Source of the DNA: an uncultured bacterium
GTDB taxonomy: Bacteria; Edwardsbacteria; AC1; EtOH8
Direction: 5' to 3'
DNA: 64,000 nt
Assembly (NCBI GenBank): GCA_937863685.1
Contig: CALMGM010000008.1
Span: 1 to 64,000 of the forward strand
Below, one piece after another: positions 52,557 through 55,608 of this stretch (position 1 is its first letter; every line of letters begins with the position of its first letter). A model generated the notes under the pieces. That model did no database searches and was not told the DNA's origin. It saw nothing but the letters and a program-made list of their open reading frames with translations. Made by a program: the position numbers and the translations under genes.

Positions 52557-53207
52557 CTATATTTCCCGGCCGAAGTCAATAGAGATATCTATCTTACGTC
52601 CCCTGCCGCCCTTGAGCGTACCCAGCGCCCCGCGGATGGTTTCCTTGATGATTTCGGCCACAAAATCGTTCAGGGAAAGCCTTTTGCCGTCCACCTCGAT
52701 GATCACCCGGCGGCTTTTCCGGCCGGGAATGATGATATCCCGCTCCAGCCATTTGGCGATCTCCGATGTTTTTGAGGGCGGAAAGTGCCGGACCTTGCTG
52801 GAGGCAGGCTTTTTTTTGCCCACAGTGGCGATGATGCCCTTAAGATCTGCATCCACCAGTTCATCCGAAAAAAGCACCTTGGGGAAATGTTCCTTCTTGT
52901 AGCCTTCGATGATCAGGAGATCCAATTCCTTGGCCAGCGCCTGGACCATGGCCTGTGGCCTGTGGCCTGTGGCCTTCTCAAACCTCACCAGCAGCTTGTC
53001 ATCGCAAATGGAGGAAATAGCCGCCCCGGCCAGCCGGAACCGGTCGGTGTCGGTTCCGCGCTTATTAGCCTTGATGATGCCGTGGGTGTGCTTGAGCACC
53101 CCGACCTTGTAGCCCTTGCGGCTAAGGATGCGGACGATCTGCTCGATCAGGGTGGTCTTGCCGGAGTTGGAGTGTCCGACGAAGGAGATTATTGGATTCA
53201 CAATCAT
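52557..53207 (-). CDS. mobB: Molybdopterin-guanine dinucleotide biosynthesis protein B
   Basis: A 216-residue P-loop GTPase of the MobB family, assisting attachment of GMP to molybdopterin. Seen: IISFVGHSNSGKTTLIEQIV (P-loop), GVLKHTHGI, DTDRFRLAGA and LLIIEGYKKEHFPKV. A C-terminal stretch of about 80 residues (VRHFPPSKTSEIAKWLE…VDGKRLSLNDFVAEI) goes beyond the minimal family. The ATG lies 2 nt after the TAG of the preceding lipoprotein gene (TAGGAATG), so it depends on coupling. Its first 40 bases are duplicated at the start of that lipoprotein gene. Confidence 0.9.
   Translation of the reverse strand: MIVNPIISFVGHSNSGKTTLIEQIVRILSRKGYKVGVLKHTHGIIKANKRGTDTDRFRLAGAAISSICDDKLLVRFEKATGHRPQAMVQALAKELDLLIIEGYKKEHFPKVLFSDELVDADLKGIIATVGKKKPASSKVRHFPPSKTSEIAKWLERDIIIPGRKSRRVIIEVDGKRLSLNDFVAEIIKETIRGALGTLKGGRGRKIDISIDFGREI
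53166..53205. repeat. 37-bp direct repeat, copy at the mobB start
   Basis: On the minus strand the stretch beginning CCAATAATCTCCTTCGTCGG matches the copy at 53683-53719 with three differences, all synonymous third-position C/T changes, and ends at the shared GGCA. Confidence 0.8.
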
Positions 53208-53209
53208 TC

Positions 53210-53725
53210 CTATTTTTTGTTGAAATAATCGCTTATTATATTAAAATAATCTACGTCAGTAGCAACACCGTAATGATATTTCGGTTTCTGCTTCCCATCC
53301 GTCATTATTGCCCCTACTATTTGTTCTTTGTCAGTTTTAGAAAATACAGTAATCTCATCATTTTCATTTACAATTTTGTAAATTGGTTTTGAGGAAATAC
53401 TGCATTTGATCCCGGTTTTATTCAAAGAATCGATAACAATATTTGTGTAATGCTGGAAATCGCTCAATACCTCATCAATCTCATTTGTTTTGCCCCCGTT
53501 TTTCACAATTGAATCATATTCAGCATTTGTTATTGAAAAGAATATAACCCTTTTGCCTTTTACATATAAGGTATCATTGACAATCCCTATCGTGTTTTGA
53601 ACATTAGCTTCCTTCTTTGCACAACCGCATAATAGCGAGAACATCCAAGACAATATAAAAAGAAAGACTAATTTTTGATTAGTGCCGGAGTTGGAATGTC
53701 CAACGAAAGAGATTATTGGCTGCAT
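53210..53725 (-). CDS. Chimeric lipoprotein: MobB N-terminus fused to an AT-rich foreign-looking ORF
   Basis: A 171-residue frame. The first 14 residues (MQPIISFVGHSNSG) copy the start of MobB and stop in the middle of its P-loop. Then comes NQKLVFLFILSWMFSLLCGC, a signal peptide with lipobox, and a body of about 130 residues with no family I recognise (GIVNDTLYVKGKRVIFFSITNAEYD, YGVATDVDYFNIISDYFNKK). Base composition is clearly more AT-rich than the flanking moeA and mobB, which suggests transfer. The positively charged n-region of a normal signal is replaced by MobB residues, so export may be inefficient. It could be a real lipoprotein starting at a non-standard codon near residue 15. Confidence 0.6.
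   Translation of the reverse strand: MQPIISFVGHSNSGTNQKLVFLFILSWMFSLLCGCAKKEANVQNTIGIVNDTLYVKGKRVIFFSITNAEYDSIVKNGGKTNEIDEVLSDFQHYTNIVIDSLNKTGIKCSISSKPIYKIVNENDEITVFSKTDKEQIVGAIMTDGKQKPKYHYGVATDVDYFNIISDYFNKK
53683..53719. repeat. 37-bp direct repeat, copy at the lipoprotein start
   Basis: Second copy of the mobB 5' sequence, beginning CCAATAATCTCTTTCGTTGG on the minus strand. The two copies bracket about 480 AT-rich bases. Confidence 0.8.
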
Positions 53726-53813
53726 GGATTCACCGGTTTATTAGTTTACAGTTTAAAGTTTCCCAGTTAAAAATCAGCGAAATCGGCTCAAATCTGCGTT
53801 CATCAGCGTTCCA

Positions 53814-55025
53814 TTAACCGAATAGCTCGACATTCACCATATCCCCCGGTTTTACTCCCCCGCACTCCTCCGGCAGGATCATCAGCCCGTCGGCCTGGAC
53901 CATGGAGGTCAGAATGCCCGAACCCTGCGGTCCGGTGAGGACTGCGTGATACGCCCCGTCAATGAACTGCACCCGGGTCCTCAAAAACTCTGTCCTGCCT
54001 GCTTGTTTCCTTATCTCCTGGTCGCTGTACGCTGTCACCTGTTCCCTGAATATATTTGTTGCCTCCTGCATCCTCAACAGCAACGGACGGACATACTGGT
54101 CGCATACCACCATCGAGGACACCGGGTTGCCCGGCAGGCCGATCACCGGCTGGCCATTGATATGCCCGAAGGCCAGCGGCTTGCCCGGTTTCTGCTTCAC
54201 TTGCCAGAAATTCATCTGGCCAATAGAGGACAGGGCCTGCTTCATCAGGTCGTAATCTCCCACCGACACACCGCCGGAGGTGATGATCACATCGCATTCC
54301 TGGCCGGCCTTATTCAGGATATTTTTTATAGCCTCCAGATCGTCCGGCACGATGCCGTAATCGTTGACCACGGCCCCGGCCTCTTTCACTTGCCCGGCTA
54401 CGCTGAAACGGTTGGCGTCGTAGATCTGTCCGGGTTTTAATGGCTGGCCAGGCGCGGCCACCTCGTTCCCGCTGGAGATGATCCCAATCACCGGCTGTTT
54501 GTAAACAATAACTTCCATAAGGCCCAGAGAAGCGATCAATCCCACTTCCTGCGGACGGAGCCTTGTTCCCTTGGCAATCAGCAACTGCCCGGAAGTAACG
54601 TCCTCTCCCTGCCTGCGAACGTTAGCCCCCTGCTTGACAACCTGAAGTATTTTGCATTTTTCCTTTTGCAATTTGCCTTCCGTCAGTTCCACCGGAACTA
54701 CGGCATCCGCCCCCTCCGGTATCTGCGCACCGGTCATTATGCGAATGGCCTGCCCCGGTTTTAAGGATTTGGTTGCCACCTTGCCGGCCGGCACGTCCTC
54801 GATGACCTGCAGTGTCACGGGACTTTGCTCCGATGCCCCGGCCACATCGGCGGCGATGACGGCAAAGCCATCCATGGCCGAGTTGTCCCTGGGCGGGATG
54901 TCGAACGAGGCCGTGCTATCCTGAGCCAATATCCGGCCCAAAAGATTATCGAGACTGCATTTTTCGGAGGGCAGGGGTTTTATGCCCTCCAGCATTTTAT
55001 TTCGCGCTTCGTGAAATGAGATCAT
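53814..55025 (-). CDS. moeA: Molybdopterin molybdenumtransferase MoeA
   Basis: A 403-residue enzyme that inserts molybdate or tungstate into adenylylated molybdopterin. Seen: RDNSAMDGFAV near the N-terminus, IMTGAQIPEGADAVVPVE, the MPT-binding ISSGNEVAAPGQPL and TSGGVSVGDYD, PGKPLAFG and GLPGNPVSS. The length is typical. It overlaps the transposase stop by 4 nt (ATGA) and precedes the lipoprotein-mobB pair. With the tungstate importer upstream, this is a metal-cofactor operon; organisms using tungsten often have such a gene. Confidence 0.95.
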   Translation of the reverse strand: MISFHEARNKMLEGIKPLPSEKCSLDNLLGRILAQDSTASFDIPPRDNSAMDGFAVIAADVAGASEQSPVTLQVIEDVPAGKVATKSLKPGQAIRIMTGAQIPEGADAVVPVELTEGKLQKEKCKILQVVKQGANVRRQGEDVTSGQLLIAKGTRLRPQEVGLIASLGLMEVIVYKQPVIGIISSGNEVAAPGQPLKPGQIYDANRFSVAGQVKEAGAVVNDYGIVPDDLEAIKNILNKAGQECDVIITSGGVSVGDYDLMKQALSSIGQMNFWQVKQKPGKPLAFGHINGQPVIGLPGNPVSSMVVCDQYVRPLLLRMQEATNIFREQVTAYSDQEIRKQAGRTEFLRTRVQFIDGAYHAVLTGPQGSGILTSMVQADGLMILPEECGGVKPGDMVNVELFG

Positions 55026-55561
55026 GGTTTTATTCTTTCTGAATTTTCATCATCAACCTGCCAATTCCTGGGATTATTATATATGTATTCCCTTATCTTT
55101 TCCAATGATTTTTCGTTACGGATGACATGTTCGTAAAAACGTCCCTGCCAGATGGATTTACCATCTGTGCCATCCTGGAGATGTATATTTTTTGTTATTG
55201 TTGATTTGATTGCACCCACGATGGTTGATAATGTTCCCGATTGGGGTTTCCCAAACCGGCCGCGCCCTGTAGGGACATGGCGCGCCATGTCCCTACCATC
55301 ATCACCGGTTATTAATAATATCATATGTATATGATTCGGCATAATAACGCAGGTATCTATCATCACATTCTTCCGCAATTGTGATGTCCTGTCTATTTGA
55401 TCGCGGGCAATCTCCCCTATTTTGTTCAATACCATCCCGCCGTTTTTTATATTACCAAAAACACACGTTTTGCTTTTCGTGCAAATCGTCACATAATAGG
55501 CACCCACGCTGGAATAATCATATTCCGGTAAACGGGTGATCTTTCTACCATGCTTTATCAT
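55022..55561 (-). CDS. REP-associated tyrosine (Y1) transposase
   Basis: About 179 residues from ATG 55561 (MIKHGRKITRL); an ATG at 55579 is also possible. IS200/IS605-like single-strand transposase fold of the RAYT group: SVGAYYVTICT, the HUH metal site in IMPNHIHMI, the KSIWQGRFYEHVIRN segment and the catalytic tyrosine in REYIYNNPRNW. Unusually, residues GRDMARHVPT are encoded by a perfect 28-bp REP-type palindrome. It sits between tupC and moeA, overlapping moeA by 4 nt, and is somewhat AT-richer than they are. Such proteins spread or maintain REP palindromes. Confidence 0.9.
   Translation of the reverse strand: MIKHGRKITRLPEYDYSSVGAYYVTICTKSKTCVFGNIKNGGMVLNKIGEIARDQIDRTSQLRKNVMIDTCVIMPNHIHMILLITGDDGRDMARHVPTGRGRFGKPQSGTLSTIVGAIKSTITKNIHLQDGTDGKSIWQGRFYEHVIRNEKSLEKIREYIYNNPRNWQVDDENSERIKP
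55269..55296. repeat. 28-bp perfect REP palindrome inside the transposase gene, family A
   Basis: GTAGGGACATGGCG followed by its exact reverse complement. The copies at 21400-21423 and 26370-26425 share the CCCT(T)AC end and hairpin design. It lies within the coding frame, between the HUH motif and the catalytic tyrosine. Confidence 0.85.
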
Positions 55562-55608
55562 TCCCCAAATCCCCAACAATCCAAACCCTATAATCCATTA
55601 CCAGATGT

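Follow-up and report, generated by a model that had tools for sequence, protein, structure and literature searches.

The window is the 64,000-nucleotide stretch analyzed in this study, taken from a draft genome of 2.72 Mb in 14 contigs (G000). As listed in Table 1, an AT-rich lipoprotein gene separates moeA from the intact mobB. The first 14 codons of mobB are joined in frame to the lipoprotein gene, and a complete mobB follows downstream; the product of the joined ORF reads MQPIISFVGHSNSG continued directly by TNQKLVFLFILSWMFSLLCGCAKKEA. The two mobB 5' ends form a direct repeat, the upstream copy of which occupies 53683-53719; the copies are identical at 34 of 37 positions (92%), 37 bp being the alignable length and 42 bp the length counted from the start codon. 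This pair is unique within the 2.37 Mb scanned, and it encloses a gap of 487 bp with a GC content of 0.32, compared with approximately 0.56 in the flanks. A Pfam profile search found no transposase or integrase in the insert. The fused ORF, the 37-base duplicates with three differences, and the AT-rich composition of the insert had all been described in an earlier note on this DNA and were recovered here.

Table 1. Features of the moeA-mobB region in the window
Feature	Position	Strand	Remarks
moeA	53814..55025	-	Conserved upstream neighbor
Copy 1, ancestral mobB 5' end, 14 codons (MQPIISFVGHSNSG)	53684..53725	-	Provides the start and N-terminal residues of the present lipoprotein ORF; relatives lacking the insert have an identical start context
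Complete chimeric ORF, 171 aa	53210..53725	-	No plausible start other than the MobB-derived ATG in either gene-bearing species
Cargo, lipoprotein body, 157 codons	53213..53683	-	LLCGC lipobox in a predicted signal peptide; matches no Pfam family; GC 0.32
Lipoprotein stop and putative mobB ribosome site	53201..53212	-	TAG (53210-53212) overlaps AGGA (53208-53211), 6 nt before GTG 53201; G002 aligns ATGAATCC here
Intact mobB (PF03205), 214 aa counted from GTG	52557..53201	-	
Copy 2 of the 37-bp repeat, within intact mobB	53159..53195	-	

The intact mobB was called as an ORF at 52557-53207 on the minus strand with ATG 53207 as its first codon. Behind the insert, mobB starts GTGAATCC in the window and ATGAATCC in the related species G002. 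An in-frame GTG at 53201 probably serves as the true start, because it is aligned with the ATG of G002 and is preceded by AGGA 6 nt upstream; ATG 53207 is disfavored because it abuts the lipoprotein stop, which leaves no spacing and no usable ribosome site. At the other end of the insert, no start codon other than the old mobB ATG lies ahead of a usable signal peptide in either gene-bearing species; the lipoprotein is therefore likely translated from that ATG. The cargo remainder after the junction begins NQKLVFLFILS, and the start codon of the cargo itself may have stood exactly at the junction.

The assignment as a lipoprotein was made by eye from a hydrophobic stretch and a Gly-Cys pair conserved in both species (G000 and G002), and the protein would be exported and lipidated. 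Between these species the cargo body has a dN of 0.096 against a dS of 0.398, which indicates that the cargo is a gene maintained under purifying selection. The homologue search proposed in the earlier note was unproductive. No homologue was found in Pfam, plasmids, phages, viral contigs, or genome_contigs, and among 386 genomes searched there were, besides G000 and G002, three weak partial matches, which were taken as chance. A sequence search of solved structures with the lipoprotein gave nothing significant, and its AlphaFold model has a mean pLDDT of 41. The composition of the gene and its absence elsewhere support the foreign origin proposed earlier, but neither a donor nor a circular intermediate of the insert was seen.

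The comparison set consists of ten species of one family of the phylum, four of which (G000 to G003) belong to the same genus. One of the three sister species, G002, carries the same lipoprotein at the same junction, with 81% amino acid identity over the body and 86% DNA identity, fused to a decayed but recognizable mobB remnant; its lipoprotein begins MQTIISSIRYFNSG where that of the window begins MQPIISFVGHSNSG. A sister lipoprotein with a normal signal peptide and no duplication, which by the earlier note would have counted against its reading, is not what G002 has: its gene carries the mobB remnant at the N-terminus. In the other two sisters (G001 and G003) and in three relatives outside the genus (G006, G008, and G009), mobB comes directly after moeA with no insert. 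The mobB of these five species starts with ATGCA(G/A)CC, which matches the upstream fused copy of the window, and the moeA-mobB spacer of the nearest sister, G001, is like that before the fused copy. Because the insert-free starts match the upstream copy, the alignment marks this copy as ancestral, and the start of the intact mobB as the new, rebuilt one. On the far side of moeA in the window, a Y1_Tnp gene (IS200-like, possibly RAYT; 55022-55579, minus strand) overlaps the moeA start; among the stretches of relatives searched, a gene 45% identical was found in the same place in G006 only.

A scan for the same build, which the earlier note had recommended, covered 2.37 Mb of the 2.72-Mb genome for direct repeats 150 to 6000 bp apart, and repeats present exactly twice were kept. 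Besides mobB, about ten loci have a foreign-looking cargo between two diverged copies (56 to 201 bp) of one housekeeping-gene end. The resulting list of eleven loci was picked by reading after the scan; targets and cargoes were named from profile matches, except for leuC, a partial gene without an NCBIfam match that was named by eye. Copies of a 5' end are found at lepA (116 bp; cargo, a PDC-M21A/B pair whose second member is an AbiEii-type nucleotidyltransferase), dapB (70 bp; a 164-aa exported protein), lysC (111 bp; a lipoprotein, a 188-aa protein, and a NUDIX protein), a leuC/aconitase-like gene (144 bp; a radical SAM-SPASM protein and a small protein), and a histidine kinase gene (201 bp; a TPR protein). 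Copies of a 3' end are found at guaB (168 bp; NsnA/GmrSD_N and HEPN proteins, with a TIR effector beyond the second copy), ymdB/TIGR00282 (78 bp; a 104-aa lipoprotein), kdsD (72 bp; an SDR), a V-ATPase subunit F-like gene, atpF (78 bp; a sorted secretion protein), and the groEL terminator region (56 bp; an 88-aa membrane protein). The ten further loci are spread over contigs C3, C5, C6, C8 (beyond the window), C9, and C13 of G000, and several carry defense-type cargo (PDC-M21, NsnA/HEPN, and TIR).

Twenty-four unique pairs (37 to 250 bp, at least 83% identity) were counted, and the gap has a GC content below 0.45 in 11 of them, against 2.97 expected; none of 2000 draws of random stretches of equal lengths reached 11. 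These 11 pairs and the eleven loci overlap but are not identical; for example, the sorting-tail pair C10:58440 is outside the list, and two listed loci, kdsD (82% identity) and the histidine kinase (gap GC 0.50), fall outside the low-GC count. The cargo is co-directed with its target at all eleven loci (0.0005, one-sided, if directions are free), and the distance from the cargo stop to the next copy is 0 to 151 bp (median, 17 bp). The location at gene ends and the shared direction may in part reflect survivorship, since other insertions would break genes or operons. Across the eleven loci, no motif is common to the insert ends beyond what shuffled controls give, and no inverted repeat occurs consistently at the termini; the groEL locus alone has an 11-base word at its insert ends. 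Profile searches found no recombinase or integrase in the inserts. When a small control (66 unrelated loci, 369 kb in total) was scanned in the same way, 4 pairs were found, and the gaps of 2 were AT-richer; the rate of pairs per Mb is similar, and we do not claim that G000 is unusually rich in them. Several candidates were set aside, namely, C10:58440, C6:27821, and C9:40009 (repeats in paralogues or common sorting tails), C14:17476 (Rhs-type repeats), and C5:812762 (intergenic repeats beside DUF559-like genes), and the dnaJ 3' pair (C5:1057403) was omitted as too short at 24 bp.

Seven of the eleven loci (mobB, lepA, guaB, dapB, lysC, ymdB, and leuC) were compared with the sister genomes. 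At lepA, a single 116-bp copy is present in G002 and G003 against two in G000, and the left and right alignments overlap by 115 to 116 bp, which defines a precise empty site. A G003-like donor was considered for the second lepA copy, and a recount of the arm differences supports no specific donor. The guaB and dapB junctions of G002 are both empty: the next conserved block beside guaB is at 60 bp, against 3.4 kb in G000, and the dapB junction has a length of 36 bp. Two further dapB 5' remnants occur in G001 (L305:1457 and L308:133), one directly before a Fic-like ORF of 366 aa and the other 3 bp behind a methylase-like ORF (both named by eye). For lysC, one 5' end is present in G003, while the extra remnants, of which G001 has two and G002 has one, lie beside a common cargo gene; these remnants (G001:C47:21218-23323 and G002:C6:360334-361002) resemble serial insertions at one gene end. 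ymdB is present as a single copy in all three sisters. In the ymdB insertion of G000 (C8:101896-102425), the rebuilt gene gains the C-terminal tail VEVDEQRGKAKAIKRIIINT, and the remnant ends in VEVV. One leuC copy was found in the stretches of G001 and G002 examined, where the junctions measure 0.8 and 4.1 kb against 6.9 kb in G000. Since the sister junctions differ and extra remnants are present, the same gene ends have received different cargo in different species, with the remnants kept.

Taken as a whole, these observations are best explained by entry of a foreign gene into mobB after codon 14, with duplication of the target end and rebuilding of mobB, a reading that we consider probable. 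An AT-rich lipoprotein gene would have entered mobB at that codon and left the mobB 5' end (codons 1 to 14 at minimum, perhaps also the ribosome site) on both sides of the insert. Through the downstream copy, mobB would again be complete and would have a ribosome site of its own, and the upstream copy would have become a remnant whose start codon is in frame with the cargo, so that expression from the moeA side and the old mobB start would now make a lipoprotein. Entry may have occurred as DNA recombining with the end of the target gene, either homologously or by one-sided illegitimate recombination as in natural transformation, and not through a dedicated recombinase. Recombination between the two copies could excise the insert precisely, and a later exchange between species would have spread it. 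In outline, the suggestion of the earlier note that the cargo brought a rebuilt end of its target gene is the best fit to the empty sites, the duplicated sites, and the recurrence at many loci.

The same note had offered recombination into a preexisting tandem mobB as its other account. A tandem duplication followed by insertion into one copy predicts the same final order of parts, but none of the relatives compared has a tandem mobB, and all eleven loci would each need a prior duplication and the same two-step history; we regard it as very improbable. A site-specific integrative element, in which a tyrosine recombinase acts on att sites in gene ends and the integrase was lost or never carried, would produce the identical topology, as the elements that rebuild the 5' ends of dusA and prfC do, with direct repeats of a gene end on each side and the gene rebuilt. 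Against this stand the at least ten different target genes, copies ranging from 37 to 201 bp, and inserts with no common core or end motif and no integrase, and this explanation appears improbable. The draft state of the genome, with its 14 contigs, leaves room in principle for an assembly or binning artifact, which the earlier note had also raised; however, the independently assembled G002 has a homologous junction (at the DNA identity given above), which refutes an artifact at the mobB locus, leaves that explanation next to no probability, and likewise excludes chance.

Two further accounts address the spread of the insert and do not conflict with the origin preferred above, i.e., insertion with duplication of the mobB end. 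The two insert-bearing species have one common junction, and in both the new mobB start has AAT at codon 2, a derived state replacing CAG/CAA; for the same species pair the cargo dS of 0.40 is close to the mobB dS of 0.42. All of this accords with a single insertion in the ancestor of the genus and vertical inheritance; the direct repeat would offer a ready route to precise loss by recombination between the mobB copies. However, rpoB identities place G000 outside G001 to G003, so that two losses, in G001 and G003, would be needed. The remnants, moreover, differ from the insert-free consensus at 2 sites in G000, synonymous in MobB terms, and at 12 in G002, mostly nonsynonymous (two-sided binomial, 0.013, on 14 changes in total). 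This asymmetry, small as the sample is, fits equal age poorly and suggests that the fusion is younger in G000, i.e., a later exchange between lineages, although selection on the N-terminus could explain it; vertical descent is possible, and we lean slightly against it. If the insert moved among species of the genus by ordinary homologous recombination, with crossovers in the first copy and in mobB, the G000 copy would be a recent arrival from a G002-like lineage; we hold the chances of this account to be even. The patchy presence and the nearly pristine remnant in G000 agree with it, as do the mobB starts (native in the first copy, G002-like in the second) and the species-typical mobB bodies. 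Recombination between species around the locus is plausible because gene trees near mobB, though built on few taxa, conflict with the rpoB distances and with one another. On the other hand, the cargo has diverged as much as the genes have, so the donor would not be G002 itself, and the asymmetry test has just the 14 changes behind it. Near the locus, the ABC transporter permease of G002 (L036:13592-14269) groups with another genus (G006 and G008) and not with its own, a possible sign of recombination.

More speculatively, and to our minds doubtful at present, small foreign cargoes in this phylum may travel as gene-end cassettes, each with one housekeeping-gene end as the homology for entry, exit, and reentry at that gene and without a recombinase of their own; the ends of core genes (dapB, lysC, guaB, lepA, and mobB) would then be reusable docking sites that accumulate remnants. 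In the preferred reading of the mobB locus as an insertion with a duplicated target end, the start codon of a resident gene has been taken over by a foreign gene, and a single odd fusion is tied to a repeated route by which defense and surface genes would enter bacterial chromosomes without a transposase. Any genome can be searched for the signature, namely, an AT-rich cargo with a gene on one side and a diverged copy of the end of that gene on the other, and decay of the remnant allows such insertions to be dated.

Insertion with long target duplication is said to have been described by Nobusato et al. in 2000 and Furuta et al. in 2010, in Helicobacter pylori and others. The G000 loci match this pattern, in that a foreign gene lies between direct repeats that are single copy in the empty strain, no known mobile element is needed, and defense genes are among the cargo. 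The repeats flanking the inserts are likewise long (37 bp at mobB and 56 to 201 bp at the ten others), and one copy is present at the empty sites (mobB in G001, G003, and three relatives outside the genus; lepA in G002 and G003; ymdB in three sisters). The process was recognized by comparing Helicobacter genomes and has been tied to restriction-modification genes (PMC3031569, PMC3874152, PMC1643837), and the duplications are long and variable, on the order of 100 bp (PMC3874152). While those insertions mainly concern restriction-modification genes, which are not a strict requirement, the cargo at mobB is a lipoprotein, and the G000 cargo is mixed (lipoproteins, a TA-like pair, an NsnA/HEPN-type pair, NUDIX, SDR, and radical SAM proteins). 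The G000 copies are, in addition, gene ends, and the mobB remnant supplies the start codon of the cargo. What is new relative to that pattern is the phylum, the varied cargo, the repeated use of the same gene ends, and the capture of the target's start codon by the cargo.

In the minimal mobile elements of Neisseria, the small gene cassette found between two conserved genes varies, and homologous recombination spreads the cassettes (PMC3082526). The guaB, dapB, leuC, lysC, and ymdB junctions similarly vary in length or content among G000 to G003, whereas the definition of those elements includes neither a duplicated target-gene end nor gene remnants (PMC3082526). Integrative elements specific for dusA or prfC (IMEVchUSA3 and SXT) insert in the 5' end of a gene and supply replacement 5' coding sequence, so that the target remains functional (PMC8409611). 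The 5' end of the target is also rebuilt at mobB, but those elements carry an integrase and have one fixed target, whereas the G000 inserts have neither an integrase nor a common attachment core. In homology-facilitated illegitimate recombination, homology is used to join foreign DNA at one end, and the other end is joined without it (PMC3240628); the process is not defined by a duplicated target end and is a candidate route for the insertions in G000.
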